Below the pieces are notes generated by a model. That model saw only the letters and a program-made list of their open reading frames with translations, was not told the DNA's origin and did not search any database. Below are positions 4,769 to 46,487 of a stretch of DNA of 64,000 nucleotides, piece after piece. Each line of letters begins with the position of its first letter. Position 1 is the stretch's first letter. The position numbers were made by a program, and so were the translations under genes. Origin of the DNA: Alphaproteobacteria bacterium (GTDB lineage Bacteria > Pseudomonadota > Alphaproteobacteria > Acetobacterales > Acetobacteraceae); the NCBI GenBank assembly GCA_016869715.1, contig VGDM01000005.1, forward strand, positions 62,001 through 126,000, written 5' to 3'.

Positions 4769-5603
4769 ATGACGATGAACTCGGTCAATACCAATGTGCA
4801 GTTCCTTATTGCGCTACAAGGCCTGAACGGGACCAATAGCGAGCTGTCCACGACACAGAAGCGTGTTTCCACCGGCTTCCGGGTTTCGGATTCGCCTGAT
4901 GATGGCGGCGCCTTTGCCGTTGCCCAATCCGTAAGTCGGACATGGCCGGCGTGGTCGCCGTGAATGAGCAATTGGGCGGGGTAAAGGCTACCCTTAAGAC
5001 GACTTTTGCGGCGCTGTCCGTAGTTTCGGACACCATGAAGCAGCTGCGCGCTACGCTGACCCGCTTGGCGAACGGCGCCATTAGTTCCGATCAGCGCACG
5101 GCCTATAAGGATCAATATGAGCTTTTGGCGAAGCAGGTCAAAAGCTTTGTGGAGGACGCATTTTATAATGGTCGAACCTTGCTTTCGACTGTGGCAGCGA
5201 GCAGCGGCGGAAACATCACGGCCACTCGGAATGAGGCAGGCGGTCTTTTCACCACCGAAGCAGTCAACGGTGCCAGTTTGTCCCTCTCGTCGACCGGACC
5301 AACGAGCGCTGCCGATGCGCAGAGCTGGATTCAGACCGGCGGCGATTTTGACGATGTTGAGGTGGAAATCAGCAAGGCGCTCAATCGGTTTGTTGCCGCC
5401 ATGTCCTTTGTGAAAAACCAGATAGGCTATAATTCAAAAAAAGGATGGACTCGATGACCACCGACCTTGGCTCACTTGTGGATGCCGATCTGGCGCAGGA
5501 GAGTTCATCCCTTGAAGCGCTCAAGGTCCGCCAGCAGCTTGGGGTTCAGACCCTGGCCCTGGCCAATCGGGGGCCGCAGGTGCTGTTGGGGCTCTTCCGC
5601 TGA
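4769..5603 (+). pseudogene. flagellin gene 1, disrupted by two frameshifts
   Basis: This encodes a flagellin of about 278 residues if repaired. The N-terminal D0/D1 region starts at the ATG at 4769 (MTMNSVNTNVQFLIALQGLN) and carries the QKRVSTGFRV and DDGGAFAVAQ signatures. After codon ~54 the frame shifts by -1 (near 4932), the middle continues as VVAVNEQLGGVKATLKTTFA, and a second -1 shift falls in a run of seven A (5436-5442). The C-terminus ends QTLALANRGPQVLLGLFR at 5603. Each lesion fits loss of one base. It is followed by a strong terminator. It is a close paralogue of the second flagellin. Alternatives are sequencing error or, for the A7 run, slippage-type phase variation. Confidence 0.88.
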
Positions 5604-5634
5604 GCCCAGTAGCCCAGTAAGCCTTGCCCGCTCA

Positions 5635-5665
5635 GCGCTCAGCCCCGTGCTGGGCGCTGTTTTTT
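5635..5665 (+). terminator. intrinsic terminator after flagellin 1
   Basis: A 9-bp stem GCGCTCAGC / GCTGGGCGC (one wobble pair) with a five-base loop, then TG and six T. It makes the two flagellins separate transcription units. Confidence 0.85.
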
Positions 5666-5942
5666 GAGTATCCGCCGCGCCATGCAAATGGCCTTTGACA
5701 TAGGCGGGTGCCGATGGCGGGCAGCATGGTTGATGCGGCCGGGGTCTTCTAGAATACTTGCCACTTAACCCGCCTGCTGAGCTTGGCTTAAAAAAAATTG
5801 ACCGGGTCTTAGGTTTTTTGTTTGCATTTAGCTTTTGTTAACTTTCCTCAGGCAACGATTGGGGGCGCCGCAAAAAGCGGATGGCAAACTGGCGATCACT
5901 ACTCAGGGTAGAGCGTGCGCCAAAAGAAAGGGGAAAACCCCA
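5666..5942 (+). promoter_or_regulatory. upstream region of flagellin 2
   Basis: About 280 bp without a gene, AT-rich at 5785-5842. TTTGCATTT at 5821 lies about 120 bp before the flagellin 2 ATG. The same nine bases occur at 4655, about 115 bp before the flagellin 1 ATG, so this is probably a shared promoter or operator element. At flagellin 2 the GG at 5812-5813 and GC at 5824-5825 have the spacing of a sigma-54 -24/-12 promoter. Flagellin 1 lacks the GG, so the sigma-54 reading is weak. A long 5' leader is expected if FlbT controls flagellin mRNA as in Caulobacter. Confidence 0.4.
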
Positions 5943-6770
5943 ATGCCTTTCAATTCTGTCAATACCAACCGGCAGGCCGTATTCGCCCTGCAAACCCTCA
6001 ACACAACGAATTACGAACTTGGTACGGTTCAGAAGCGCGTGTCTACCGGCTTTCGCGTTGTGGATGCGCGGGATGACGGCGGTGCCTTCGCCGTTGCTCA
6101 GGCCGTGCGCTCCGATGTCGCCGGCGTCACGGCGGTGAATGAACAGCTCGGCGGCGTCAAGGGCGTAATGCAGACCACCTTTGCTGCGTTGACTGTGGTG
6201 TCCGACACCATGAGGCAGGCACGTGCTACTCTGACGCGTCTGGCGGACGGCGCTATTGATGCCTCTCAGCGGGCCCAATATGTGGAGCAGTATAACCTAC
6301 TATCACAGCAGATTTTTGACTTCATTACTGACTCCAAATGAAATGGTCGTACCTTGCTTAGCACGGTAACCGGTTCGGGTGGAGGCTCTATTTTTGGCAT
6401 CCGCAATGAAGAAGGCGGCACCTTCACCATCAATGCCGAAAATGGAACTGCGCTCACCCTTGCCTCCACTGCTCCCACAGATGCGGCAGCTTCGGTGAGC
6501 TGCCTCAACGGTAGCTTCACCACGGCTGAGGGTGCAATTTCTACGGCGCTGAACCGCTTCGGTGCCAGCATGCAGTATGTGGGAAACCAGATCGTCTACA
6601 ATTCCAAGAAGAATGATGCCATGAATGATGGCCTCGGGGCGCTGGTGGATGCCGATCTAGCAGAGAAAAGTTCGAACCTCTGGGCGCTGCAGACCAGGCA
6701 GCAACTTCGCATTCAAACCCTTTCACTTGCCAATCAGGGGCCGCAGGTTCTGCTCAGCCTCTTTCGCTGA
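5943..6770 (+). pseudogene. flagellin gene 2, interrupted by an in-frame TGA
   Basis: It would be a 275-residue flagellin if read through. The N-terminal half (MPFNSVNTNRQAVFALQTLN, then QKRVSTGFRVVDARDDGGAF) runs to a TGA at 6339-6341. The same frame then continues without other damage through NGRTLLSTV, to a C-terminal coiled region ending QTLSLANQGPQVLLSLFR. The stop falls where flagellin 1 has the tyrosine of YNGRTLLS. The start has GAAAGGGGA upstream. Unless the stop is suppressed, only a truncated 132-residue product lacking the C-terminal D0 helix is made, which could not polymerise. Intact flbT and flaF follow directly. Confidence 0.85.
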
Positions 6771-6815
6771 GGTTAGCAACGCCGAGGAAGAGACAACTCA
6801 ACCGACGCAAAAACA

Positions 6816-6843
6816 GGTGGTCCCGGATTAAGCCGGGGCCACC
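6816..6843 (+). promoter_or_regulatory. stem-loop between flagellin 2 and flbT
   Basis: An 11-bp stem, GGTGGTCCCGG with CCGGGGCCACC (one G-T wobble) around a six-base loop, ends about 13 bases before the flbT ribosome binding site. There is no T-run, so it is not a standard terminator. It may set the flagellin:flbT expression ratio by protecting mRNA ends or partial attenuation. That role is inferred from position. Confidence 0.5.
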
Positions 6844-6865
6844 ACCCGCAAACCGGAGACAAAAA

Positions 6866-7291
6866 ATGTCAACGCTCGTTCTCGAACCCCGCCAAGGCGA
6901 CATGATGATGGTCAATGGCGCACCGATCCGCTTTCGCAATCGTGCGCGGATCGAACTTACTGCAAGAGCGCGCTTCCTTTTCGGCAAGCAATTGATGACG
7001 CCCGATATGGCCAATACCCCCGCCAGGTGCATCTACTTTGCCTTGCAGACCGCCTATATCGACGATCATGAGGAGCGTAAGGCTGGGCTTGAACATGCCA
7101 AGCAGCTCATCACCGAATTCAGGGTAGCCACAACTTCCAATCTCGCGCGCAAGTATCTTGATCGCGCCCTGGCGTTGGCGGAAGAAGATCAGTGCTATCA
7201 GGCGCTGAAATTTGCGTGTCGCGTCATGCGGCATGAGGAAGTGGTGCTTGGAATGGCACCAATCGCCCAGTTTGCAACCGCGACGGAATGA
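6866..7291 (+). CDS. flbT: flagellin mRNA regulator FlbT
   Basis: A 141-residue FlbT, the post-transcriptional regulator that in Caulobacter binds flagellin mRNA leaders and destabilises them until the hook is complete. The product starts MSTLVLEPRQGDMMMVNGAP, with RARFLFGKQLMTP and TPARCIYFALQTAYI following, all typical of the family. The ATG at 6866 has CCGGAGAC upstream. The gene is intact even though both flagellins before it are broken. It overlaps flaF by four bases (ATGA). Confidence 0.93.
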   Translation: MSTLVLEPRQGDMMMVNGAPIRFRNRARIELTARARFLFGKQLMTPDMANTPARCIYFALQTAYIDDHEERKAGLEHAKQLITEFRVATTSNLARKYLDRALALAEEDQCYQALKFACRVMRHEEVVLGMAPIAQFATATE

Positions 7292-7650
7292 CAGAAAATC
7301 CTATGAACCAGATGCTTGGATCGCGCGGCTATGGCGCGACGCAACGTACCCGCAGCCTGCGCGAACAGGAAGCTGGTGTCTTTCGCTGTTTGAACTATGC
7401 CCTGAAAGCCGCGCTGAATTCGGATGTCATTGATCGTGCCAGGGTGGTTGCCGATAATCAGCGCCTATGGTTGGCGATTGAGTCCGCCATACTGCATCCC
7501 GCCAATCAATTGCCCAATGCGCTTAAGGCTTCCATCGTCGGCCTTAGCCGGTCTGTTCAACGGGAAATGGATAAGGAAGTGCCGGACTTGCCCTTCCTGA
7601 CCGGCATCAATGATCAGATGATCGGCGGCCTTTCCGGCGATCCAGGCTGA
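7288..7650 (+). CDS. flaF: flagellar biosynthesis regulator FlaF
   Basis: A 120-residue FlaF, which in alphaproteobacteria promotes flagellin translation/secretion and opposes FlbT. Seen: RTRSLREQEAGVFRCLNYAL near the N-terminus and a DNQRLWLAIESAILHPANQL segment, both typical. The start overlaps the flbT stop (ATGA at 7288), indicating coupling. A second ATG at 7303 is possible. It ends 12 bp before the convergent cytochrome b561 gene. Confidence 0.92.
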   Translation: MTENPMNQMLGSRGYGATQRTRSLREQEAGVFRCLNYALKAALNSDVIDRARVVADNQRLWLAIESAILHPANQLPNALKASIVGLSRSVQREMDKEVPDLPFLTGINDQMIGGLSGDPG

Positions 7651-7662
7651 ATCTTCCGCGTT

Positions 7663-8241
7663 TCAGATCATCCGCATCAGCGTTCCATCGCGCCTGATGG
7701 CGTGGTGGAACAGAGCACCGCCGATATGCAGTGCAATCAACACCACCAAAAGCCAACCGCCAATACTGTGCAGCAGCGATAGGATTTTAGCCAAGCTTTC
7801 CAAGGCCTCCATGAATTTCGGGAACTCGATGAACCCAAGATAGGCAGTCGCTCCCCGCATCGGGAAGCCCCAGGCATTGGTCGCCATGAAGCCCAAGATC
7901 GGCTGCAGGATCAGTAGCGCATAAAGCGAATGATGCACCGCGGCTGAGGCGGCGCGCATCATCTTCGGCATATCATTGGGTTGGCTCGGTGGCGGGCTGA
8001 GCCAGCGCCAAGCCAGCCGCGCGAGCGCCACAAACAGAATGGTCAGCCCTGCGCTTTCATGGAGCGCGTAGAACCCCATCTTGCTTGCATCCTTCACATG
8101 CTGGATGACAAAGCCAAGCGGCAGCGCCACCAGCATCAGGCCCAAAGTCACCCAATGAAACAGCTTCGCAGTTGCGCCATATTGCCCCGCCGGATGCGCC
8201 GCATCCGTCCCCTTTGGCGGCAAAGCTGCCATGTCATTCAT
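7663..8241 (-). CDS. cytochrome b561 family membrane protein
   Basis: A 192-residue four-helix di-heme b-type cytochrome of the cytochrome b561 / Ni-hydrogenase b-subunit type. It would pass electrons to or from quinone or periplasmic partners in the inner membrane. Helices carry candidate heme ligands: KLFHWVTLGLM (helix 1), ALHESAGLTIL (helix 2), AVHHSLYALLIL (helix 3), and LLHSIGGWLL with ALHIGGALFHH (helix 4). The ATG at 8241 (MNDMAALPPKG) has GGGAGA upstream and is preferred over longer starts. The electron-transfer partner cannot be assigned from context. Confidence 0.9.
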   Translation of the reverse strand: MNDMAALPPKGTDAAHPAGQYGATAKLFHWVTLGLMLVALPLGFVIQHVKDASKMGFYALHESAGLTILFVALARLAWRWLSPPPSQPNDMPKMMRAASAAVHHSLYALLILQPILGFMATNAWGFPMRGATAYLGFIEFPKFMEALESLAKILSLLHSIGGWLLVVLIALHIGGALFHHAIRRDGTLMRMI

Positions 8242-8309
8242 CGTATTCTCCCATCTCGTTGCGATCAGCATGACACGAAGCGCGGCACCCGCGCGAGGGT
8301 TTTTGCGCC

Positions 8310-9230
8310 ATGATCGCCGCTCACGCAGATTGGAGTCTCGATCCGCGCAAGCGCTGGGTCAGCATCTCCTGCCGCCGGGGAGGGCAATGGCAAGCCTGCG
8401 CGCCCTGCTTCGTCGGTCACCCAGCCGCCCTGGCCACGCATCTGATCGCGGAAGGCGGTCCGGCGGCTTTAGGCTTGGACCTGCCGCTTGGCGTGCCACG
8501 TGGCTTTGCCGCAATGCGCCCTGAAGCGGACTTTCCGACCTTTCTGGCAGGACTCGCGGGAAACATGGATTTCTTTGCGGTATCCCCAAGCCTCGATACC
8601 GTCTCCCCCGCCCGCCCCTTCTACCCGGCGCGCGGCATCAAGGGCATGACGCGCGCGGCGCATGCGGCGGCGCTTGGCCTGCCCGATGCCGCTGGCCTGT
8701 CCCGCTTATGTGATCGCGCCACGGCCGAACGCCCCGCCGGCGCGCCAGTGTTTTGGACCCTCGGCGCCAATCAATCAGGCAAGGCCGCCATCAGCGCCTG
8801 GCGCGATTGGCTTGCCCCCGCCCTTGCTGCCGGCACGCCCTTCCGCCTTTGGCCTTTCGCCGGGGCGCTGCACGATCTGCTTCGCCCCGGCCAGCTTGCG
8901 ATTGCCGAGGTCTATCCGGCGGAAGCCTTGCGCCATCTTGGCCTGAAATTGGCCGGATCAAAACGCGCCGAAGGGCCACGCCGCGCACTTGCCCCCGCGC
9001 TGCGCGATGCCATGGCCGCGCTGCACGTCACCCCCGATGCAGCCTTGGCCGAGATGATCCAAGCCGGCTTCGGCAGCGATGCCGCTGGCGAGGACCGCTT
9101 CGATTCCCTGATCGGCCTGCTCGGCCTGATTGGCGTGGTGGATGGCAAGCGCCCCGATTTCATCCCCGAAGACCCGATGATCCGCACTTGGGAGGGCTGG
9201 GTTTTGGGCCAAACCGCCCTGCCGCTTTAA
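8310..9230 (+). CDS. DUF429-like protein
   Basis: A 306-residue soluble protein without a signal peptide. The pattern GLDLPLGVPRGFA near residue 55, AIAEVYPAEALRHLG near 200 and a late acidic EDRFDSLIGLLGLIGV segment resembles the DUF429 predicted RNase H-like nuclease family (conserved D..PLG, E-YP and late D). The assignment is from pattern only. The biological role is unknown. It is transcribed divergently from cytochrome b561 and ends overlapping the stop of the convergent Lrp gene by four bases. Confidence 0.55.
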   Translation: MIAAHADWSLDPRKRWVSISCRRGGQWQACAPCFVGHPAALATHLIAEGGPAALGLDLPLGVPRGFAAMRPEADFPTFLAGLAGNMDFFAVSPSLDTVSPARPFYPARGIKGMTRAAHAAALGLPDAAGLSRLCDRATAERPAGAPVFWTLGANQSGKAAISAWRDWLAPALAAGTPFRLWPFAGALHDLLRPGQLAIAEVYPAEALRHLGLKLAGSKRAEGPRRALAPALRDAMAALHVTPDAALAEMIQAGFGSDAAGEDRFDSLIGLLGLIGVVDGKRPDFIPEDPMIRTWEGWVLGQTALPL

Positions 9231-9715
9231 CCGAGCGGTACGCCCGCCGCATCCTTCGCCGTGCGGATTGTCTGCAAGGTCTGCACGCGCAGCACATTCG
9301 CCGCCCCCGTCAGTCGTGCGGTCAATTCATTCTCATGCGCCGTATTGCGCGCGACGAGTCGCAGCAGGAAATCCCCGCCGCCGCGGATCATGTGGCATTC
9401 GCGCACCTCCGGCCAGGACGTCGCCAACGCCTCAAAAGAATCCAGCACGCTTTGCTTTTGCGATTCCAGGCCGACAAGCGCGAAGAACATCACCTCCCAC
9501 CCCAGCGCGGTGGGGTCGAGTTCCGCGTGATAGCCGCGAATCACGGCTTCTTCTTCCAGCCGCCGCACGCGCCTCAGGCAGGGCGGCGCAGAGAGATTGA
9601 CGCGGCGCGCCAGTTCCACATTGGTGATGCGGCCATCGGCCTGGAGCTCCGCCAGAATCTGACGGTCCAGGGCATCCAGGGCCAGACCAGGGGCGGGGGT
9701 CTTGGTATTGGGCAC
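9227..9715 (-). CDS. Lrp/AsnC family transcriptional regulator
   Basis: A 162-residue Lrp/AsnC regulator. The N-terminal helix-turn-helix ([20 protein letters not shown], then [20 protein letters not shown]) is followed by the RAM/AsnC ligand-binding domain with [17 protein letters not shown]. The start is GTG at 9715. It is divergent from trxB with about 118 bp between them, which is where any autoregulatory site should be. The effector is probably an amino acid by family habit, but it cannot be named here. Confidence 0.93.
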
Positions 9716-9833
9716 AGGTCTTCATTGCTCAAAATTGGCTCGCCGCGCAATATCATTTCAAGATGCGGCATCGGTCGGACAGTGGCTTGCCCGAAAGGGG
9801 CGGCTGGCCGATATCAGCAAAGTGAATACAGGG

Positions 9834-10814
9834 ATGCGGATCGTGGCCGAGACATTTCAAAGCAAGCTGCTCATTCTGGGGGCCGGGCCGGCCGGCTATA
9901 CGGCGGCGATCTATGCGGCGCGCGCTGGGCTTGCGCCCTTGCTGGTGGCGGGGATGCAGCCTGGCGGGCAGCTCACCATCACCACCGATGTGGAAAATTA
10001 CCCAGGCTTTGCGGAAGCCGTGCAAGGCCCCTGGCTGATGGACCAAATGGCCGCGCAGGCCACGCATTGCGGCGCCAAGGTGGTGCAGGATGTCATTACC
10101 TCGATTGATCTCTCGCGCCGGCCCTTCCGCGCGGTGTGCGATTCGGGTGATGTCTATGTGGCCGAAGCACTTGTGATCGCAACAGGGGCGCAGGCGCGCT
10201 GGCTTGGCATTCCGGGCGAGAAGGAATTGGGCGGTTTCGGCGTTTCCGCTTGCGCCACCTGCGATGGCTTCTTCTATCGCGGCAAGGATGTGGCCGTGAT
10301 TGGCGGCGGCAATTCCGCGACCGAGGAAGCGCTCTATCTTTCCAACCTCGCGCGCCGTGTCACGCTGATCCATCGGCGCGATTCGCTGCGTTCCGAGAAA
10401 ATCCTGCAACAGCGGCTTTTCGCCAAGCCGAATGTTTCGATCCTGTGGAATACGCTGACGGAAGAAGTACTCGCCGATACATCCGGGCGCATGCCGGTGG
10501 CGCGGGGGCTCGCGCTGCGTGATCGCGTTACTGGCGAGGCGCGCGAATTGAAAGTGGATGGCGTATTCGTCGCCATCGGTCATTCACCGGCAACGGCCCT
10601 TTTCCAGGGCCAGATCGGCATGGATGCGGAAGGCTATATCGAAACCACGCCCGGCAGCACGCGCACTTCCATCCCCGGTGTCTTTGCCGCCGGCGATGTG
10701 CAGGATAAGATTTATCGCCAGGCTGTGACCGCCGCCGGCACGGGTTGCATGGCCGCGCTGGAAGCGGAAAAATACCTCGCCGCGCTTGAAGCAGGCCACG
10801 CGGCGGCGGCCTGA
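9834..10814 (+). CDS. trxB: thioredoxin-disulfide reductase
   Basis: A 326-residue flavoprotein that reduces thioredoxin with NADPH. The FAD motif GAGPAG is at 16-21, the redox-active CATC at residues 140-143, the NADPH motif GGGNSA near 157, and the C-terminal FAD segment [21 protein letters not shown] follows. The length matches the family. The ATG at 9834 was chosen, with a GTG at 9822 as an alternative four codons upstream. The stop overlaps the LysR gene start (TGATG), so the regulator is co-transcribed. Confidence 0.96.
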
Positions 10815-11704
10815 TGCCGACCGATTGGGACAAGCTGCGTATTTTTCACGCGGTTGCCGAAGCAGGGTCCTTCACCCATGCGGGTGAGACACTGAACCTC
10901 AGCCAATCTGCGGTATCACGGCAAATTCAGGCTTTGGAGGAAGCGCTGAATGTGCCGCTATTTCACCGCCATGCGCGCGGCCTGATCCTGACAGAACAGG
11001 GCGAAACCCTGAACCGCACCGTGCGCGAGGTTTTCGCGAAACTCGCGATGACCGAAACCATGTTGACGGAAAGCCGAGAGCGTCCGGCAGGCAGGCTCAA
11101 GGTCACGTCCACCATTGGCTTTGGCAGTACCTGGCTGGCGCCGCGCTTGAAGAAGCTGCTGGATATCCATCCGGAAATCAGCGTGACGCTGCTATTGGAT
11201 GATTCCGATTTGGATATCGCGATGCGCGAAGCGGATGTCGCCATTCGCATGCATGCGCCGAGGCAGCCGGAATTGATCCAGCGCCATATCGCCAGTTTCG
11301 GTTGGCGGATTTGTGGCGCCGCTTCCTATCTGAAGACCATCGGCATTCCGCAACGGCCCGAGGATTTAGATGCGCATCGGCTGATCATCTATGGCGACTA
11401 CCAGCCGCCGATTGACAGCATCAATTGGCTGGCCGAGGTCGGTCGCCGGCCCGGAACCGCCAGGCGCGCGGCGGTGGAGCTCAATTCCATGCCCGGCATG
11501 GTGCAGGCGGTCCGTAGCGGCTTGGGGCTGGCCGCGCTGCCCGATTACATCGGGGCGGAACTGGATGATTTCGTCCAGGTGCTGCCGGGCGTGAAGGGGC
11601 CGAAGATTGAGGCCTATTTCGTCTATCCAGAAGAAATGAGGCATTCCAAGCGTTTAGCGGTGTTTCGGGATTTTTTGGTGGCGGAACTGACCGGCGCGGT
11701 GTGA
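10814..11704 (+). CDS. LysR family transcriptional regulator
   Basis: A 296-residue LysR-type regulator. The N-terminal winged HTH contains LRIFHAVAEAGSFTHAGETL and LSQSAVSRQIQALE, and a type 2 periplasmic-binding-like effector domain follows from about residue 92. The target is unknown. It is coupled to trxB by a TGATG overlap. A strong intrinsic terminator lies 170 bp downstream. Confidence 0.93.
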   Translation: MPTDWDKLRIFHAVAEAGSFTHAGETLNLSQSAVSRQIQALEEALNVPLFHRHARGLILTEQGETLNRTVREVFAKLAMTETMLTESRERPAGRLKVTSTIGFGSTWLAPRLKKLLDIHPEISVTLLLDDSDLDIAMREADVAIRMHAPRQPELIQRHIASFGWRICGAASYLKTIGIPQRPEDLDAHRLIIYGDYQPPIDSINWLAEVGRRPGTARRAAVELNSMPGMVQAVRSGLGLAALPDYIGAELDDFVQVLPGVKGPKIEAYFVYPEEMRHSKRLAVFRDFLVAELTGAV

Positions 11705-11872
11705 CAGAGTATTAAAGATCAGGGCTGAGCTATGCGCCCAGCGCATGACCGTATAGTCGAGAACGGGAACCACAACCGGAGCGAGAGCAGCTAGAACCAG
11801 AATATTCGACATCGTTCGGAAGGGGTCTCTTGATCCCTCGTCTCCCAGACGTGAAGCCTCCCTGTTGACTTA
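11705..11872. other. non-coding spacer after lysR
   Basis: No convincing gene. On the minus strand a short frame from 11811 could encode about 50 residues beginning MSNILVLAALAPVVVPVLDY, a possible single membrane segment. It has no ribosome binding site and runs into the lysR 3' end, so I do not call it. Confidence 0.3.
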
Positions 11873-11907
11873 GCCCGGAAACCTTATGGTTTTCGGGCCA
11901 TTTTTTT
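11873..11907 (+). terminator. intrinsic terminator downstream of trxB-lysR
   Basis: An 11-bp stem GCCCGGAAACC / GGTTTTCGGGC (one wobble) with a TTAT loop, followed by CA and seven T. It is a strong rho-independent terminator. Confidence 0.87.
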
Positions 11908-11949
11908 GATGTGGTCGCAACCGGAGCGAGTTTGTTTCGCTGGGCGCCC

Positions 11950-13366
11950 ATGCTAGCTGCCTATCATGGTCAGCAAATCCATCAAAAGCCGGTCAACGTG
12001 GTCAGAACACGTGCTGCAGGACTGACCCAGACCCTTCTTGTCGCAATCATTGCGGCGATACCCGCCCTGATCGCAGCATCTATCACGGGCGTCTTCGAAA
12101 CACCCGATATCGGCGCATATTTGACCTATGCCGCCATGATACCTGCTGGCCCTTTGCCGCGCGGAGAAGCTTTCCTTGGGTCGAGCCACGCGCCCATCCC
12201 GCTTTATCGAACTCCGGGTTATCCTGCCGTGATCGCTGTGCTGCAGTACGTTTCTTTAACACACTCGATGTCACTGCTTTTCCTGGTGCAACTCCTCAGT
12301 CAAGCACTGCTTGCAGCCTATACTTATCGAGTTGGATTGGCGCATGGTCGCAGGCCCGTCTATTCTTTTGTGGCGGCGTTGATGCCCGCAGCGGGATCTG
12401 TTGCGGTGTTCCAATCTGCCGTCATGACAGATGCTCTATTTGGAGCGCTTTTTGGCGGCGCCATGCTGCTGCGCTTCATGCGGGCCTATTGATGGGCTTG
12501 GCTGCGGCAATCCGCGAAGCAACGCCTTACCTCATGCCTGGGCTTCTGCCTGCGGCGTTCATCGCCGCAGCACAGGGGCGCAAATTACTGGGATTGGCAA
12601 CCTTCATTTTGCCGGCGCTTCTGGTTTCGGGCTTGACTTTGGCGGATCATTATCGCCGGTCAGGTCATGCGGTGCTTTCCACCTCAAGGCAAATCGTGAT
12701 GGTGCAGGCACTGTTATCCTTGGTATCGCGCGGCGTGCCGGTGTTTGAAGGCGAAACGCTAATTGCCCGAACGGCTCGAGAAACTGTCGTTGGAATTTAT
12801 TATTTCAGCATTGCTGCACTCAATATCCGTCTTTTTGAAGTTGGGCATGACGGCACCGGAAATCGCCGCGGCCGCATCGGCCAATTATGCGTGGGCTTGG
12901 CGTCAGAATCCGGTTGAAATGCTGCGCGCGACCGCCGCGCGCCTGCCAGTGAAGATGCTTTGGATCACTTTCATGCCGGTGGATACCGCTGCCGATGTGG
13001 AACGACCGCGAGGGGAACCGAGGCCCTGGTTCGGACGACCCGAAGTCTTGTGGCGCCTGGCCAAGGAAGGCTCGTTCTTCGCCCTACCGATCCTAACTAG
13101 CCCTTTGGGTCGGACGGGCGATCGGTCTTGCTGTCACAATCGGCGCTATTGTCTCGCCCTTCCTGTTTGCCAGATCGGATGGCCGGCGCGCGGCAATATT
13201 CCGTGCCTGGCTTGCCTGCGGCGGTTTTGTGGCGGTGTATCTGCCGGTCCATCTGTAGTAACGCTACCTTATTCCCATTGTGCCGATGCTGTGTCTTTTA
13301 GGGGTGCTGGCCATCCAGAGCGTGATCGCCAGCCTGCTCCCGCGCTGGTTCAAATCTTCTGCCTAA
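11950..13366 (+). pseudogene. membrane glycosyltransferase (GT39/ArnT-like), degraded
   Basis: Successive fragments in shifting frames read as one multi-spanning membrane protein of about 470 residues. The N-terminal part has one helix, then RTPGYPAVIAVLQYV (the PGYP motif typical of GT39-type membrane glycosyltransferases), LLFLVQLLSQALLAAYTYRV and SAVMTDALFGALFG. Frame changes occur near 12485, 12770 and 13095. The last fragment contains VAVYLPVHL, two consecutive stops (TAG TAA at 13256-13261) where family members usually read EPRY, then RYLIPIVPMLCLLGVL and a final stop at 13366. It has no functional product as written. Family assignment is moderate; the broken state is clear. Confidence 0.75.
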
Positions 13367-13453
13367 GATCTCCCAAAATACAACCACTTGACGGGGTGAT
13401 CCGTTTCGCCCTGCCATGGAGCAAAATCAGCCTGAAAGGCCAAAGGGGGTAGC

Positions 13454-14425
13454 ATGTCAGGAACAACGCGCCGTATTGTTTTGGGCTTGGGTGGCGCATT
13501 GCTCGCCGCGCCGGCCTTAGGCCAGTCGCTTTGGCCAACCGGGCCTATTCGCTTCATCGTCACCTTTCCTGCGGGCGGTTCCACCGATCTGCTCTCTCGC
13601 ATCTGGTGCAATCGCATGGCGGAAATCACAGGGCAGCCCTTCGTGGTGGAAAACCGGTCAGGTTCCGGTGGGAATGTCGGCACCGAAGCAATTTCGCGCG
13701 CCAGCGCTGATGGCAATACGATTGGGCTTGCTTCAGTTGCGTCTTTTGCCATTGCGCCGACACTCTATCGGCGCCTGCCCTTCGATGTGACGCGAGATTT
13801 TTCGTATATTTGCGGGCTCTGGCAATTGCCGAATCTACTGATCATGCGGCTGGATTTCCCAGCCAATACTGTATCGGAACTGATTCGCTTAGCACGCGAG
13901 AAGCCTGGGCACTTTACCTTCGCAAGCTCCGGCGCGGGCACCACGCTTCATCTTTCTGGAGAATTATTCAAGCGAATGGCGGAGGTGGATATCCTGCATA
14001 TCCCCTATCGCGGCGGCGCACCGGCGCAGATTGATCTATTGGCCGGGCGCGTGGACATGATGTTTGGCAATATTCCGGAGGCAGTGCGCGCCTTTCGCGA
14101 AGGCAAGGTGAAAGCACTCGGCGTGACAGGCCCGGAGCGCAGCCCGCAAGCGCCGCAAATTCCCGCCATTGGCGAATTCCTGCCGGGCTATGCGGTGACT
14201 TCCTGGGGTGGGGTTTGCGGCCCGGCCGGCATTCCGCCCGCCATCATTGCGCGCATTGCCGAACTTGGCAGGCAAGCCGTGGAAAGCCCCGATGTGCGCC
14301 GCCGGTATGAGGAAGCGGCAGCGGAAGTCTGGTGGGTATCGCCGCAGGATTTGGCACAATTCCGTCGCACCAATGAAGAGAGCTTCGCCCCCCTGATCCG
14401 CGCCGCAGGCGCGGTGGTGGAATAA
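13454..14425 (+). CDS. tripartite tricarboxylate transporter substrate-binding protein (TctC/Bug) 1
   Basis: A 323-residue periplasmic solute receptor of the TctC/Bug family. The signal peptide is MSGTTRRIVLGLGGALLAAP, with twin arginines. The mature part begins LWPTGPIRFIVTFPAGGSTD, the family's first ligand-binding loop, then FVVENRSGSGGNVGTEAI and VDILHIPYRGGAPAQIDLL. The length is typical. A strong AGGGGG site precedes the ATG. No TctA/TctB membrane subunits are nearby, so it is an orphan receptor. A close paralogue follows immediately, clearly by tandem duplication. The ligand is unknown. Confidence 0.93.
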   Translation: MSGTTRRIVLGLGGALLAAPALGQSLWPTGPIRFIVTFPAGGSTDLLSRIWCNRMAEITGQPFVVENRSGSGGNVGTEAISRASADGNTIGLASVASFAIAPTLYRRLPFDVTRDFSYICGLWQLPNLLIMRLDFPANTVSELIRLAREKPGHFTFASSGAGTTLHLSGELFKRMAEVDILHIPYRGGAPAQIDLLAGRVDMMFGNIPEAVRAFREGKVKALGVTGPERSPQAPQIPAIGEFLPGYAVTSWGGVCGPAGIPPAIIARIAELGRQAVESPDVRRRYEEAAAEVWWVSPQDLAQFRRTNEESFAPLIRAAGAVVE

Positions 14426-14454
14426 GTCTTGGCGCGCTTTGCATAAGCCAAGAC
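14426..14454 (+). other. perfect hairpin between the two TctC genes
   Basis: GTCTTGGC and GCCAAGAC form an exact 8-bp stem around 13 bases, right after the first receptor's stop. No T-run follows. It may stabilise or separate the two mRNAs. Confidence 0.5.
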
Positions 14455-14494
14455 CAATGCGATATGCTCCATGAAGATAACGGGAGGATCAACC

Positions 14495-15475
14495 ATGAAA
14501 AACACCATCACACGCCGCACCACGCTCGGCCTAGGCGCCGGCTTGCTTGCCGCACCTGGCCTTGTCAGCGCCCAGGGCAATTGGCCAACGGGCCCCATTC
14601 GCTTCATTGGGCTATTCCCACCGGGTGGCGGCACGGATATCCTGTCCCGCATCTGGTGCATGAAAATGAGCGAGCTGACCGGACAGCAATTCGTGGTGGA
14701 GAATCGCTCAGGCTCCGCAGGCAATGTTGGCACCGAAGCGATTGCGCGGGCCAATCCGGATGGCAATACCATCGGGCTTGCTTCAGTCGCACCGCTCGCC
14801 ATTTCGCCAACGCTTTATACCCGCCTCAATTACAGCCCTGCGCGTGACATCGCGCTGATCTCTGGCCTATGGCAATTGCCGAATTTGCTCGTGGTGAATA
14901 ATGACGTGCCGGCGCGGTCCATACCTGAATTGATCGCTTTGCTGAAGGCCAGTCCCGGCAAATATGCTTTTGCATCTTCCGGTTCAGGCACGACGGTTCA
15001 CCTTTCGGGGGAGATGTTCAAATTCATGGCCGGCGTGGATATGCTGCATGTCCCGTATCGTGGTGCGGCGCCCGCGCATATTGATCTTGCAGGCGGGCGC
15101 GTTCACATGATTTTTGACAATATTCCGCAAGCCCTTGCATTGGCGCGGGATGGCAAGGTGCGCGCCTTGGCCACGACAGGCACACAACGCAGCCCGCAAG
15201 CGCCGGAAATTCCCACTATGGCAGAATTCCTGCCAGGGTTTGAAATCAGTTCCTGGGGCGGAGTATGTGCGCCGGCCGGGATTTCCCCGGCCTTGATCCG
15301 GCGAATCAACGAACTCACCAAGCAATCGCTGGAAACCGATGATATCAAGCGGCGCTTCTTCGAAAATGGCGCGACAGTCTGGTATACCACGCCGGAGGAA
15401 TTCGTGAAATTCCGCGCCGATAATGAAGCCGCCTTTGCGCCACTGATCCGCGCATCCGGCGCGAAGGTAGATTAA
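14495..15475 (+). CDS. tripartite tricarboxylate transporter substrate-binding protein (TctC/Bug) 2
   Basis: A 326-residue paralogue of the gene before it: the WPTGPIRFI, ENRSGSAGNVGTEAIARA, GLWQLPNLL, PYRGAAPAHIDL and SWGGVCAPAGI stretches are nearly shared. The N-terminus MKNTITRRTTLGLGAGLLAA looks like a signal with twin arginines. The ATG at 14495 has GGGAGG upstream and is preferred over an ATG at 14471. The region between the two genes is only 69 bp. The C-terminal stop overlaps the end of the convergent rhodanese remnant. The ligand is unknown. Confidence 0.93.
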   Translation: MKNTITRRTTLGLGAGLLAAPGLVSAQGNWPTGPIRFIGLFPPGGGTDILSRIWCMKMSELTGQQFVVENRSGSAGNVGTEAIARANPDGNTIGLASVAPLAISPTLYTRLNYSPARDIALISGLWQLPNLLVVNNDVPARSIPELIALLKASPGKYAFASSGSGTTVHLSGEMFKFMAGVDMLHVPYRGAAPAHIDLAGGRVHMIFDNIPQALALARDGKVRALATTGTQRSPQAPEIPTMAEFLPGFEISSWGGVCAPAGISPALIRRINELTKQSLETDDIKRRFFENGATVWYTTPEEFVKFRADNEAAFAPLIRASGAKVD

Positions 15476-16015
15476 GCCGCGCGCCGATTCTACGGCATCA
15501 GCGCGAGCAAATTTGCCAAGGGGAACAACCTCATGATGCCGGCAAACACCAGACCTGCGCCGACAAAGGCGAAAAGCGCGTGAAAGCGCGGGTTAATCAA
15601 GGCGCCCAGCGCGGCACTCAGCAGCACCAGGCTACCCGACGTGATCTATACCTGCCGCATGATGGGCATCGGCGCGCGCTTTTCTTCGGCAATCTTCACA
15701 GCGGCAGCACTCAGCGCACCAATCCCGCCTTCTACCAGCAACACGCGGCACCCCGGCGCAGCGGCGGCAAGGGCGCCCGCATTCTGCGCGGTGCGGCTGC
15801 CCGATTGGCAATGGAAGATCACCTTTGACCCCGCTGGGATGCCAAGCGCCGCACTCCCCAGCCGAGACACCAGCGCATGGGCAGACCTGGGCACATGGCG
15901 CCGCGCCCGTTCGTCGGGTTCGCGAATATCCACCAGCGCAGCCCCACCGGAGGTGATCAGGCCCGCGGCTTCGCGGGCGGAAATGGATTGGGCATTCGAG
16001 GCGGCGCTCCTGCAT
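15472..16015 (-). pseudogene. rhodanese-DUF2892 fusion gene, broken
   Basis: The sequence reads as a rhodanese domain (ISAREAAGLI, LVDIREPDER, then VIFHCQSGSRTAQNAG with active-site Cys, VLLVEGGIGAL) followed by a two-helix DUF2892-type membrane tail (SGSLVLLSAALGALINPRFH, FAFVGAGLVFAG). A TAG at 15646-15648 stands between MPIMRQV and ITSGSLVLL, where related proteins read straight through, consistent with CAG to TAG. A second TAG at 15490-15492 follows LLALMP. The only good start, the ATG at 16015, is in another frame than the rhodanese domain, implying a frameshift as well. A truncated 95-residue rhodanese could be made from an internal GTG, but it lacks the usual N-terminus. Confidence 0.8.
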
Positions 16016-16065
16016 CGAGCTCGCCTTAAATAAATTAGTGTTGTCTTATATTCGACAGAAAAGCG

Positions 16066-16734
16066 TCAAAAATCTAGATCGGCATAGTGTTCGGGCGGGA
16101 TCAGGCCGCTGATCCGATCCTGCAATAGCGGCCTGAAGGATGGGCGGGATTTCACTCGTGCATACCAATCCTTGGCGGCGTCATTCAGCGCCCAATCCAC
16201 ATCCCCCAGGTAATCCAGCGCCGAAAGATGCGCCGCCGCCGCCAAATCCGCGAGCGACAGCGCATTCCCCCCAAGCCAGGGCCGGGTTTCCGCAAGCCAG
16301 CCGAGGTAATCGAGATGCGGGCGCAAATTGGCATAGCCGGCGCGAATGGCACCCGCATCCGGATTACCGCGGCCCATCAGCTGCTTCATCTGCTTCTCGA
16401 ACAGCAGATTCCGCCCGACCTCGAAATGGAATTTCCCATCAAACCAGGCCACCAGCCGCCGGATTTCCGCCCTTTCGCCGAGTGAACGCCCAAGCAGCGG
16501 CATATCCGGATAGGATTCGTCCAGATATTCGCTTATGGCATAGGAATCGATGATGCAAAAGCCGTTTTCTTCCTGCAGCACGGGCACGGTGCAGGCGGGA
16601 TTGATGGCCAGGAATTCCTCTCGCCTTTCCCAGACCCTTTCGACCCGCAGATCAAAGGGAATGCGCTTTTCCGCAAGTGCCAAGCGCACCTTGCGAGAAT
16701 AAGGCGAGAGGGGGAGGTGATAGAGAATCCGCAC
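16066..16734 (-). CDS. glutathione S-transferase family protein
   Basis: A 222-residue protein with the two-domain GST layout. The N-terminal thioredoxin-like domain contains LYHLPLSPYSRKVRLALAEK with the Ser/Tyr that activates glutathione, CTVPVLQEENG (cis-Pro) and the glutathione-binding DSYAISEYLDE. The C-terminal all-alpha domain ends with ALSLADLAAAAHLSALDYLG. The GTG at 16734 gives the normal start; the frame is open further upstream across the divergent promoter region. The physiological substrate is unknown. It is divergent from the aminotransferase gene at 16893. Confidence 0.88.
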   Translation of the reverse strand: MRILYHLPLSPYSRKVRLALAEKRIPFDLRVERVWERREEFLAINPACTVPVLQEENGFCIIDSYAISEYLDESYPDMPLLGRSLGERAEIRRLVAWFDGKFHFEVGRNLLFEKQMKQLMGRGNPDAGAIRAGYANLRPHLDYLGWLAETRPWLGGNALSLADLAAAAHLSALDYLGDVDWALNDAAKDWYARVKSRPSFRPLLQDRISGLIPPEHYADLDF

Positions 16735-16892
16735 GACGCGCTTATGCCACCCATAGCCGAGGGCGCAAAGCACTACCTGGAAAAAGGGGGGTGTATGGCG
16801 CCACAAAACATGTTGAAGTGACGCGTCCAGGGTAGACAAGCTTTTTGGCCCCGCAAAAACCAATGCCCGCTCAAGGATGAGGAGGAACGCTG

Positions 16893-18224
16893 ATGACACC
16901 GCCACTTGATGCATCCACCGCGCCGCGCAATTCCGATCTGGAGGCGGCGCTTGCCGAAGCGCGAGAGAATTATTCCCGCGCCCGTCCCAATAGCGCCACC
17001 GCGCATGAGAAAGCCCGCACCGTCATGCCGGGCGGTAATACGCGCACCACGCTGTTCTACACGCCCTTCCCGACCGCGATGAAAAGCGGTCAGGGCTGCT
17101 ATCTGGAAGATATTGACGGCAACAAATATCTTGACCTTTGCGGCGAGTATACCGCAGGGCTGTTTGGCCATTCCGATCCGCGTATTCAGGCGCTGCTGTT
17201 CCAAGTGATCCAAAACGGCATCAGCCTTGCTTCGGTCGGCGAGAATGAGGCGAAGCTTGCCGCCATTCTGTGCGCACGCTTTCCCGCGCTGGAATTGGTC
17301 CGCTTTACCAATAGCGGGACTGAGGCGAACCTCTTGGCCGTTGCAGTCGCGCGGGCGCATACGAGCCGCAGCAAGATCATCGCCTTCCGTGGCGGCTATC
17401 ACGGCGGCGTCATGAGCTTCGTCACTGGTGGCAGCGTGGTGAATGCGCCGTTTTCGGTGACGCTTGCCGAATATAATGATCTGTCCGGCACACTGGCCCT
17501 TATCCGCGAACACGCCGCCGATCTTGCTGCAGTTCTGCTGGAACCCATGATGGGCAGCGGCGGCTGCATCCCCGCCACGCGGAAATTTCTGGCCGGGCTG
17601 CGGGACGCAACGCGCGAAGTAGGCGCGATGCTGATTTTCGATGAGGTGATGACCAGCCGTCATACGGCTGGCGGCCTGCAGAAGCTGCATGGCATCACGC
17701 CTGATCTCGTCTCGCTCGGCAAATATATCGCGGGCGGCATGTCCTTCGGTGCCTTTGGCGGGCGCGCGGACGTCATGTCGGTGTTTGATTCACATAAGCC
17801 AAATGCGCTGACGCATTCAGGCACTTTTAACAATAATGTGCTGTCCATGTCCGCCGGCACCTTGGCGATGGGCGAGATTTTTGATGACAGTGCTGCGGAA
17901 GCGCTGTGCAAGCGCGGCGATGGGCTGCGTGTTGCGCTGAATGGCATTTGCGTCAAGCACAAGGTCGCCATGCAATTCACCGGCATTGGCAGCATGGTGC
18001 AGCCACATTTCCGCCTGGGGCCGATCCTGCGCCCCTATACCGCTAGCGCGCAGGAAGATGGCCTGCGGGAGCTGTTCTTCCTGGATATGATGAAGGCCGG
18101 CATTTACATCGCCCGGCGCGGCATGGTGGCACTGAGCCTGCCGGTCGGTGAGGCTGAGTTGCTGCGCTATATCGCGGCGGTCGAGGAATTCTGCGCCTCT
18201 CGCAAACCGCTGATGGCGGGGTGA
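16893..18224 (+). CDS. class III aminotransferase (glutamate-1-semialdehyde aminomutase-like)
   Basis: A 443-residue PLP enzyme of fold type I, class III. Seen: VMPGGNTRTTLFYTPFPTAM near residue 45, as in glutamate-1-semialdehyde aminomutases, TNSGTEANLLAVAVARA near 140, the FRGGYHGG phosphate loop, LIFDEVMTSR, and SLGKYIAGGMSFGAFGG with the Schiff-base lysine. Many proteins of this type act on other substrates, so the true reaction is open. A very good GAGGAGGAA site precedes the ATG. It is divergent from the GST and followed by a GC-rich hairpin. Confidence 0.88.
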   Translation: MTPPLDASTAPRNSDLEAALAEARENYSRARPNSATAHEKARTVMPGGNTRTTLFYTPFPTAMKSGQGCYLEDIDGNKYLDLCGEYTAGLFGHSDPRIQALLFQVIQNGISLASVGENEAKLAAILCARFPALELVRFTNSGTEANLLAVAVARAHTSRSKIIAFRGGYHGGVMSFVTGGSVVNAPFSVTLAEYNDLSGTLALIREHAADLAAVLLEPMMGSGGCIPATRKFLAGLRDATREVGAMLIFDEVMTSRHTAGGLQKLHGITPDLVSLGKYIAGGMSFGAFGGRADVMSVFDSHKPNALTHSGTFNNNVLSMSAGTLAMGEIFDDSAAEALCKRGDGLRVALNGICVKHKVAMQFTGIGSMVQPHFRLGPILRPYTASAQEDGLRELFFLDMMKAGIYIARRGMVALSLPVGEAELLRYIAAVEEFCASRKPLMAG

Positions 18225-18234
18225 AACGGGTCAG

Positions 18235-18259
18235 GGCGGGGCTGGTTTCCGGCCCCGCC
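18235..18259. terminator. GC-rich hairpin between convergent genes
   Basis: GGCGGGGC (18235-18242) pairs with GCCCCGCC (18252-18259) around nine bases, between the aminotransferase stop and the end of the convergent 110-residue gene. There is no T-run on either side, so it is only a possible weak bidirectional terminator. Confidence 0.4.
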
Positions 18260-18274
18260 GCCCCTTGGGCCGCG

Positions 18275-18607
18275 TCAGCGCCGATCCTTGCGGGCAACAA
18301 AGCCGCTGCCCTCGCCCTTTCGCCAATTCGCAAATTTAGGAAATTCCAGTGCCACGCCGCGATGGTCACAGGGGATGACATTGGTCGCCGGAATGTCACG
18401 TACCATGCTCATGAAAACGCCCCGTGGGCGGGAATAGCCGGCCAATTCAATGTCCAGAGCGCCCCTGTTCGTAATACAACGGATCCTACCCCATTCCCCG
18501 GCCTGCGCGGTGGGGGCGGGACCGGCTCCGGCACGTGTCAGGCGCGCAAGATCACCCACTTCGAGGATAGGGACTTGCCGCCCATCGACGCGGAAATCAA
18601 GTTTCAT
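18275..18607 (-). CDS. hypothetical protein (110 aa)
   Basis: No family recognised. The product starts MKLDFRVDGRQVPILEVGDL and contains GRIRCITNRGALDIELAGYS and VIPCDHRGVALEFPKFANWR. It looks like a small beta-rich cytoplasmic domain with two cysteines. A GGGGG stretch lies just before the ATG at 18607; a GTG at 18619 is an alternative. It has codon use like its neighbours. It lies downstream of the broken rhodanese-like gene on the same strand. Confidence 0.55.
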   Translation of the reverse strand: MKLDFRVDGRQVPILEVGDLARLTRAGAGPAPTAQAGEWGRIRCITNRGALDIELAGYSRPRGVFMSMVRDIPATNVIPCDHRGVALEFPKFANWRKGEGSGFVARKDRR

Positions 18608-18812
18608 GCGCCCCCACACTCTTAACCCCGCAGGATTAAGCCTTCCATCGCAAAAAAGTGTCTACGTCCCTGACGAAATCGAAAAGCCGTCGCATACTTC
18701 CTAACGTATCGGCAAGGCGCTTTTGGCGAAGTCACAAAGATTATCGTGACACCCGATGGCATACAGTCTGGCTCCGGCATACCGCCGGGCTGCGCGCCTT
18801 GGGCAACGGTCT

Positions 18813-19209
18813 TCAGCAACCGCAACCAACCGGCGTACCGGCGCGGCCTTCAAGCCCCGCGGTCTGATAGCTATCGCGCTTCCATCAATCCAAGCCACCG
18901 ATCAATTCACGCACCTGGAAGCCCTGGGTCAGCAATTTGAGCGCGGTTTTGGTTGACGCATTGCACCCAATAACATCACAATAGCAGATATAGGTCTTCG
19001 CCTTATCCAGCGCCTCGGTACTGAGGGGTACAAATACCCCGATGCGGCAGATTGATTGCGCCGGGGACATGTTCCTTGGCAAAGGCGGCTTCGGATCGAC
19101 CGTCTACGACCACCACGGCTTCGCTATTGCTGATCGCGAAATGCAGATCCCAGGAATCCAGCTCAAAGGCGAGTTTGCTTTGATAATGGGCCATTTGTTC
19201 GATCGTCAT
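18813..19209 (-). pseudogene. rhodanese-like gene, broken
   Basis: The ATG at 19209 opens a rhodanese-like protein (EAVVVVDGRSEAAFAKEHVP, GAINLPHRG). Near 19030 the frame shifts, and the C-terminal half continues in another frame with STEALDKAKTYICYCDVIGC, NASTKTALKL and FQVRELIGGLD. At 18885-18887 TGA replaces the tryptophan of the usual GGLDWWKRDGY ending; the frame then runs on through WKRDSYQT to a stop at 18813. So there are two independent lesions. A GGAAGC stretch precedes the start. If intact it would have been a single-domain sulfurtransferase of about 130 residues. It lies just downstream of gltB copy 1. Confidence 0.82.
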
Positions 19210-45514: not shown

Positions 45515-46487
45515 TTACACTGGCGTCGCACCACTCGCGCGCACCACAGGCGCCCAACGATCTGCCTCACGCGAGACAACGGCCTGAACATCGGTTGGGC
45601 CATTATCGGTCATGGTCAGCGCGCCAAGCCCCGCAATGCGGTCCTTCATGCCAGGTTCATTGATGCTGGTGGTGAAGGCTTCGCGAATGCGCGTCACCAC
45701 AGCCTCGGGCATGCCGGCGGCGCCGGCCAGCACAAACCAATTGATGGCGGTGGCACCCGGGAATCCTGCTTCCACAATTGCCGGCACATCGGGGGAGGTG
45801 GACATGCGCTCGCCGCTCGTGACCGCGATGGCTTCCAGCGAACCGCCGCGCACGCTGCCGGCATGCGCGCCAAGCGCATTCCAAAGCGATCCCGGTCTGC
45901 CGCGCAACACCTGCTGTTCCGCTTCCCCGCCACCGCGGAAGGGCATATGCATCAGTTGCACACCAGCCTCACGCGCCCAGAGCATGCCGGAAAGATGCCC
46001 AACCGAACCAATCCCCGCATTGCCATAACTCATGGCCTCAGGCCGCACACGCGCGGCGGCCAGGTAATCCGCCATGTTCTGAATGGGGCCATTGGGCCGT
46101 ACCCCCACTACCATGGGCGCACCACCCACCAGCATCACATAGGAAAAGCTGCGCGGTACATCATAGGCAAGGTTCGGGAACAGCGTTTGCGCAATCGCCA
46201 CGGGGCCGGCATTGGCGAGCACAAGCGAATAACCATCCGGGCGTTCGCGCTGTACCCACCGTACCGCCCGCGCCGCGGCGATTATCCAGCACCACCGGCT
46301 GGCCCAAGACGCGCTCCAACGTAGGCGAGAGCAGCCGCACCACACCATCCTAAGTGCCGCCCGCCGAAAAGGGACTGACGACACAAATGGGGCGATTGGG
46401 GAAGGCCGCTTGGGCAAAGCTGCCTGAGGGCAGCAGCATCGGCAGCGCAAGCGTTGAGGCAGCGGTCAGAAGGTTACGACGCTTCAT
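45515..46487 (-). pseudogene. TctC/Bug receptor gene, broken
   Basis: The ATG at 46487 with GGGAGG upstream opens MKRRNLLTAASTLALPMLLP, a normal Bug-type signal, then FPNRPICVVSPFSAGGT. An in-frame TAG at 46350-46352 (codon 46) interrupts the usual GGTxDG motif. The same frame continues DGVVRLLSPTLERVLGQPVV until a frameshift near 46250, after which another frame carries ERPDGYSLVLANAGPVAIAQ, the PFRGGGEAEQQV core and a normal C-terminus. So there is one nonsense change and one frameshift. If repaired it would be about 324 residues. A terminator lies downstream. Confidence 0.85.

Follow-up and report, generated by a model that had tools for sequence, protein, structure and literature searches.

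Why do six protein-coding genes in a single stretch of an alphaproteobacterial genome carry in-frame stops and frameshifts when long genes beside them read through cleanly? The stretch, hereafter the window, comprises 64,000 nucleotides of contig VGDM01000005.1 (positions 62,001 to 126,000) from the Acetobacteraceae assembly GCA_016869715.1, and its broken genes encode two flagellins, a membrane protein, two rhodaneses, and a TctC (Bug-type) solute receptor. The genome, referred to here as G000 (the window being G000:C5:62001-126000), is a 3.55-Mb draft of 196 contigs with a stated completeness of 100 and a stated contamination of 5.08%. The lesions probably reflect recent, lineage-specific, and genome-wide erosion, with motility lost, in a Roseomonas-like freshwater lineage. 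It appears to be an ordinary kind of genome erosion, caught at an early stage.

We compared G000 with 34 other genomes of its genus and with 19 further loci (L056-L074) gathered through the intact aminotransferase gene at window positions 16893-18224, whose best segments are 90-97% identical. The metagenome-assembled genome (MAG) records of these loci are labeled Roseomonas sp., Asaia bogorensis, Rhodospirillales, or Alphaproteobacteria, and five of them probably correspond to genomes of the set (L071 with G007, L064 with G005, L059 with G020, L061 with G025, and L070 with G029). In a gltB tree, G000 and G007 are sisters and G024 joins them next (ultrafast bootstrap [UFBoot] 100 for both), the branch leading to G000 being longer than that leading to G007 (0.058 vs 0.033); G029 lies outside the clade formed by these three. 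The sister genome and the relatives G005, G020, and G025 appear to be MAGs from Microcystis colonies, with records that fit a published single-colony study (PMC8477515).

Broken genes in the window and across the genome

Lesions were mapped by frame-by-frame reading and by frameshift-aware alignment of relatives' proteins, and together the two methods confirmed all six broken genes that the first-pass annotation had reported (Table 1). In the small rhodanese the PF00581 match is split into two pieces, one of which contains a TGA, and in the receptor gene at 45.5 kb two PF03401 pieces lie in different frames. Orthologues are mostly free of lesions. This was the case in 9 of 9 relatives aligned for the flagellins (the same nine loci serving for both copies), in 10 of 11 for the gene encoding a rhodanese with a YgaP-like domain (rhodanese/YgaP), and in 2 of 2 for the small rhodanese; the rhodanese beside GltB also lacks stops among the matches listed in G005, G007, G008, G015, G020, G024, G025, G031, and G033. 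The lesions look like real decay, specific to this lineage and, as the first-pass annotation had suggested, recent.

The lesions are concentrated in few genes. Fifteen fall in 6 of the 54 window genes, where random placement by length would be expected to hit 12.5 (P about 2e-5: 1e-5, and 2.5e-5 in a repeat run, for lesions chosen before the test). With the membrane protein excluded, nine lesions remain, confined to 5 of 53 window genes (P = 0.007). This concentration argues against random error; general sequencing error had already seemed unlikely in the first-pass annotation. Both GltB (1509 amino acids) and a GltB-like protein (1545 amino acids) are clean.

We next counted breakage in the TctC family, which is spread over the genome and is for that reason a better gauge of decay than the orthologue scan described below. 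A search of G000 returned 144 PF03401 rows, hand-merged into 137 loci, and 12 of these are broken (eight with stops and four more that are split). All seven split pairs have their pieces in different frames. Five lone partial matches (C91, C7:6404, C67, C41, and C21) were not counted as broken, and by the same rule we left out a lone partial match (C3:97332) and a sub-cut-off row (C20:50030) in G029. Breakage in G000 exceeds that in all three relatives counted: G020 (0 of 139; Fisher P = 1.7e-4), G007 (1 of 142, a sub-cut-off fragment; P = 1.2e-3), and G029 (2 of 105; P = 0.026). The broken copies lie on ten contigs (C1, C2, C5, C7, C9, C18, C22, C30, C49, and C78), so the decay is genome-wide, and the local cluster of broken genes first described at this locus gives way to a wider pattern. 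The family itself is very expanded, with about 105-142 loci per genome in the four genomes searched (3.3-3.9 Mb). The orthologue of the intact window TctC gene at 14471-15475 carries a stop in one relative, L067.

In an orthologue scan, stretches of each genome were compared with relatives' genes. Six of 64 G000 loci were broken, by 10 lesions, as opposed to 1 of 102 loci in relatives (Fisher P = 0.014), the 64 being exclusive of FlaA, the membrane protein, and the 45.5-kb TctC. The sole control lesion (L171) may stem from a misplaced gene boundary in the reference. We also tried an intrinsic coding-frame hidden Markov model as a pseudogene caller and rejected it: its strictest setting flagged 11 of 369 gene calls in G000 and 3 of 389 in relatives but missed all six broken genes of the window, and several calls of a looser setting, which we did not rely on, fell at stretch ends. 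The same caller reported several frame changes within a few kilobases of the sister genome (L162:2575-8983, on G007:C23), which may be pseudogenes or atypical sequence. Elsewhere in G000, a glutamate-synthase-like gene (C40:21264-22202) has an internal TGA that none of the relatives' matches listed shares.

The lesion count of the membrane-protein gene is a minimum derived from one orthologue, that of L072, the sole relative with a full-length copy, and the place it occupies (window 11918-13407) has no DNA match in L057, L059, L060, L066, L067, or L071; on these grounds it is a patchy accessory gene. These six relatives include L071, the record matching the sister genome. The first-pass label of GT39-like enzyme, and with it a glycan function, found no support: the protein has no Pfam match at E 0.01, and its sole NCBIfam glycosyltransferase match is far and below cut-off (E 0.67). 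A plasmid match for this pseudogene was looked for and none was found. No RNA family reached gathering score in the window.

Table 1. Broken genes and intact reference genes in the window, with coordinates counted from its first nucleotide.
Feature	Coordinates	Strand	Details
Flagellin pseudogene A	4769..5600	+	Two frameshifts, near 4934 and 5441; aligned to L071 orthologue, 67% identity
Flagellin pseudogene B	5943..6767	+	One in-frame TGA at 6339; aligned to L061, 76% identity; PF00669 match with one TGA
flbT, open frame intact	6866..7291	+	PF07378, E 7e-25
flaF, open frame intact	7288..7650	+	PF07309, E 6.5e-12
Membrane-protein pseudogene	11990..13379 (approximate)	+	At least four frameshifts and two stops; aligned to L072 565-aa protein
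Rhodanese + YgaP-like transmembrane pseudogene	15475..15999	-	TAG at 15648 and 15492; relative's protein is PF00581 + PF11127
Rhodanese pseudogene adjoining gltB	18816..19209	-	Frameshift at 19026 and TGA at 18887; relative's protein PF00581
TctC (Bug-type solute receptor) pseudogene	45515..46487	-	One TAG and one frameshift; split PF03401 match G000:C5:107533-108343
GltB, intact control, 1509 aa	19249..23778	-	
GltB-like open reading frame, intact control, 1545 aa	48864..53501	-	

The flagellar gene set

The damage to motility goes deeper than the two broken flagellins of the window had indicated. All four flagellin loci found in G000 are broken, the copies on C26 carrying a TAA in one case and a TGA and a TAA in the other; among the matches listed for flagellins of 58 relatives, a stop occurs in only one (G029). 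Of the 35 genomes of the genus, 32 yielded FlhA; it was not found in G000, G029, or G017, the last an assembly of 770 contigs, and in G000 the search gave no first-look candidate. Rod and hook domains (Flg_bb_rod) number six in each of five other relatives, four in G015, one in G029, and none in G000, where 0 of 18 candidates scored as a match.

The sister genome carries a flagellar cluster running from flgH to flaF over 36 kb. When this cluster was searched as DNA against G000, with 40 of 289 first-look candidates scored in one search and 40 of 226 in the other, its outer edges alone were recovered, along with paralogues, a dispersed repeat, and short stretches. One edge, at C3:1, holds flgH (PF02107), preceded by the end of an IS3-family insertion sequence (IS) at C3:1-135. 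The other, at C18:1, begins with a piece of an IS5-family transposase that runs into a flbT lacking its first 23 codons, followed by flaF. The interior of about 34.6 kb, including a speD/speE region, was not found in the G000 assembly. Deletion of the cluster is likely but short of proof, since each edge lies at a contig end and the two carry different IS families. As far as its gene content indicates, G000 seems to have lost the flagellum. The genes inside the cluster that we take to be speD/speE-like lie at L158:13373-14746 in G007 and in L178 in G029. G029 retains them but lacks the surrounding flagellar genes, and no DNA match to them was found in G000.

Contig ends of G000 were also examined (L136, L145, L154, L155, L176, L177, L179-L195, and L226-L245). 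Pieces of IS3-, IS5-, or rve-type transposases, themselves taken from G000 ends, match 14 of 43 ends in G000 and 0 of 22 in G007. Repeats shared with another end occur at 21 of 43 ends in G000 and 17 of 22 in G007, and IS proliferation as a special feature of G000 is not supported, the ends of the sister being equally rich in repeats.

The loss of FlhA has a counterpart in G029. As G029 lies outside the clade of G000, G007, and G024, the two losses look independent. The rhodanese/YgaP gene of the matching locus L070 (7895-8419) has an in-frame stop of its own, at a codon different from those hit in the window, and a search of this 20.6-kb locus, which includes gltB, did not find the small rhodanese. 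Both rhodanese genes broken in the window are thus also broken or not found in the second lineage without FlhA. With two lineages, this shared loss may be a coincidence of general reduction. The flagellins of G029 are mostly still open among the matches listed. The genomes of G029 and G000 measure 3.3 and 3.55 Mb, respectively, as opposed to 3.7-4.2 Mb in most near relatives.

Selection, composition, and competing explanations

Selection is relaxed in the two broken genes tested, flaB and rhodanese/YgaP. Changes private to G000 in these genes comprise five nonsynonymous changes and one stop against five synonymous changes. This 6:5 ratio of nonsynonymous-or-stop to synonymous changes compares with 7:61 in nine intact G000 genes (P = 0.002) and with 5:30 for the same two genes pooled over 11 relatives (P = 0.013). 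The mutation spectrum proved uninformative. The first-pass annotation had read G/C-to-A/T changes as a sign of decay, and we rejected this sign, the same bias being present in intact genes and in relatives: private changes in that direction and in the reverse number 8:3 in the two broken genes and 44:9 in the nine intact genes (P = 0.42), and in each of the 12 taxa the intact genes show more G/C-to-A/T changes than changes in the opposite direction. Across 18 G000 stretches, GC is 0.617, GC4 is 0.800, and coding density is 0.899, within the ranges of relatives (0.615-0.622, 0.800-0.820, and 0.879-0.918, respectively); the window itself has a lower coding density of 0.839.

Several observations weigh against recent erosion with loss of motility. 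In the orthologue scan, 31 of the 64 loci, three of them broken, come from a window picked for its lesions, and one broken locus outside it is a C26 flagellin, fetched on purpose; in the 18 G000 stretches whose choice took no account of lesions, 2 of 22 loci are broken (P = 0.08). Of the eight frameshift sites, two are close to homopolymers of at least five, compared with a background of 5.4% of sites (chance 0.07). The selection test draws on two genes and 71 codon columns. The dN/dS comparison put forward in the first-pass annotation came out divided, pairwise omega being raised for rhodanese/YgaP (0.25 vs 0.15) and not for the flagellins or the small rhodanese. A nearly unchanged pairwise omega is expected for young pseudogenes and equally for intact genes, so this measure is too blunt. 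The 18 stretches show neither AT drift nor lower coding density relative to relatives, features expected only at later stages of erosion than the early one assigned to G000. As for the flagellar cluster, the DNA searches scored the share of first-look candidates given above, the missing stretch includes the speD/speE genes that G029 keeps, its two edges both fall at contig ends and carry different IS families, and repeat-bounded ends are as common in the sister as in G000.

Among other explanations, the one that fares best is streamlining of a free-living, planktonic lineage that sheds motility and spare transporters with no binding to a niche or host. It draws on G029, which has no FlhA, has independently broken or lost the same rhodaneses, and matches a record named K_Offshore_40m. 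Nevertheless, the many readable pseudogenes and the unchanged G+C and coding density fit relaxed selection better, and about 125 TctC loci remain unbroken; we consider streamlining rather unlikely. A second explanation accepts the point lesions and places the flagellar cluster on an unbinned contig between two IS copies, so that the cell may swim with the cluster's own flagellin. The different IS families at the two contig-end edges and the inclusion of speD/speE in the missing stretch would fit. Against this stand the four broken flagellins of four found, the truncation of the cluster's flbT beside IS5, the stated completeness, and the empty searches for FlhA and rod domains, which together make it improbable. 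Third, random indels and substitutions in a poor draft could have broken the genes, and the contig number, stated contamination, and homopolymer sites speak for this reading. It would not be expected to cluster in few genes and spare two of 4.5-4.6 kb, to include in-frame stops, to remove whole genes as well, or to produce excess private nonsynonymous changes in two broken genes, and we regard it as very unlikely. Recoded stops or programmed frameshifts in functional genes are extremely unlikely: all three stop codons do occur in readable frames, but TAA, TAG, TGA, and frameshifts are all present at positions where aligned relatives have one open frame, and the search for FlhA, the export gate of the flagellum, found nothing.

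Recent, genome-wide erosion with loss of motility would have proceeded as follows. After its split from the sister, the G000 lineage would have lost its flagellar machinery, probably by deletion of the cluster interior, with retained edges that both end in insertion sequences and may point to a role for these elements. Selection on the scattered flagellin loci would then have ended, letting stops and frameshifts gather. Other dispensable genes (about 9% of TctC receptors, two rhodaneses, and the membrane protein) would decay likewise, with the long core genes looked at staying clean. The ecological cause may be a way of life to which swimming brings no further benefit, perhaps within the mucilage of cyanobacteria. 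Binding of G000 to a niche or host, raised in the first-pass annotation, is plausible given that its sister seems to be a Microcystis-colony MAG; a host need not be necessary, given that the independently FlhA-less G029 matches K_Offshore_40m, which we take to be a lake station. More speculatively, this could be a clade of Microcystis colonies whose lineages shift independently from swimming to non-swimming, the flagellum and two rhodaneses going together in G000 and G029. Such a clade would offer natural replicates of the earliest steps toward dependence on cyanobacteria or a lake niche, in which the genes being lost can still be read.

Relation to known systems

Pseudogene-rich early genome erosion is itself of a well-known kind. 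In G000 the remnants can still be aligned, the closely related G007 keeps the cluster, and G029 repeats the loss, which makes it possible to test in what order and why the first genes were lost. In the literature on Roseomonas, the phycosphere, or Microcystis together with pseudogenes, a coverage outside which most subscription papers and bioRxiv's own collection fall, no report of the G000 lineage appeared among the papers listed.

Sodalis glossinidius is described as an early stage of erosion with almost 50% pseudogenes (PMC7067036, PMC3091646). G000 resembles it in its many still-readable pseudogenes and in the presence of mobile elements; in contrast, only about a tenth of tested G000 loci are broken, with no raised IS load shown and no known host. 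The luminous symbionts of anglerfish (PMC6020299) are likewise reported to be undergoing reduction and live as extracellular associates, but the title of that study names transposons as the agent, and an IS load above that of relatives was not shown for G000. Candidatus Phycosocius offers a parallel among Alphaproteobacteria of freshwater blooms, with genomes reported to have shrunk independently and, in one member, putative pseudogenes of the tad pilus (PMC10008586). Unlike in G000, where the flagellum is what seems lost, flagellar genes were found in all members of that group. The Roseomonas of Microcystis colonies are probably kin of G000. The single-colony study (PMC8477515) distinguishes 13 species of Roseomonas and reports that they share co-phylogeny with Microcystis, and the word "pseudogene" is absent from its main text. 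This reported co-phylogeny of Roseomonas-labeled relatives with Microcystis makes colony dependence a concrete hypothesis for the erosion seen in G000.

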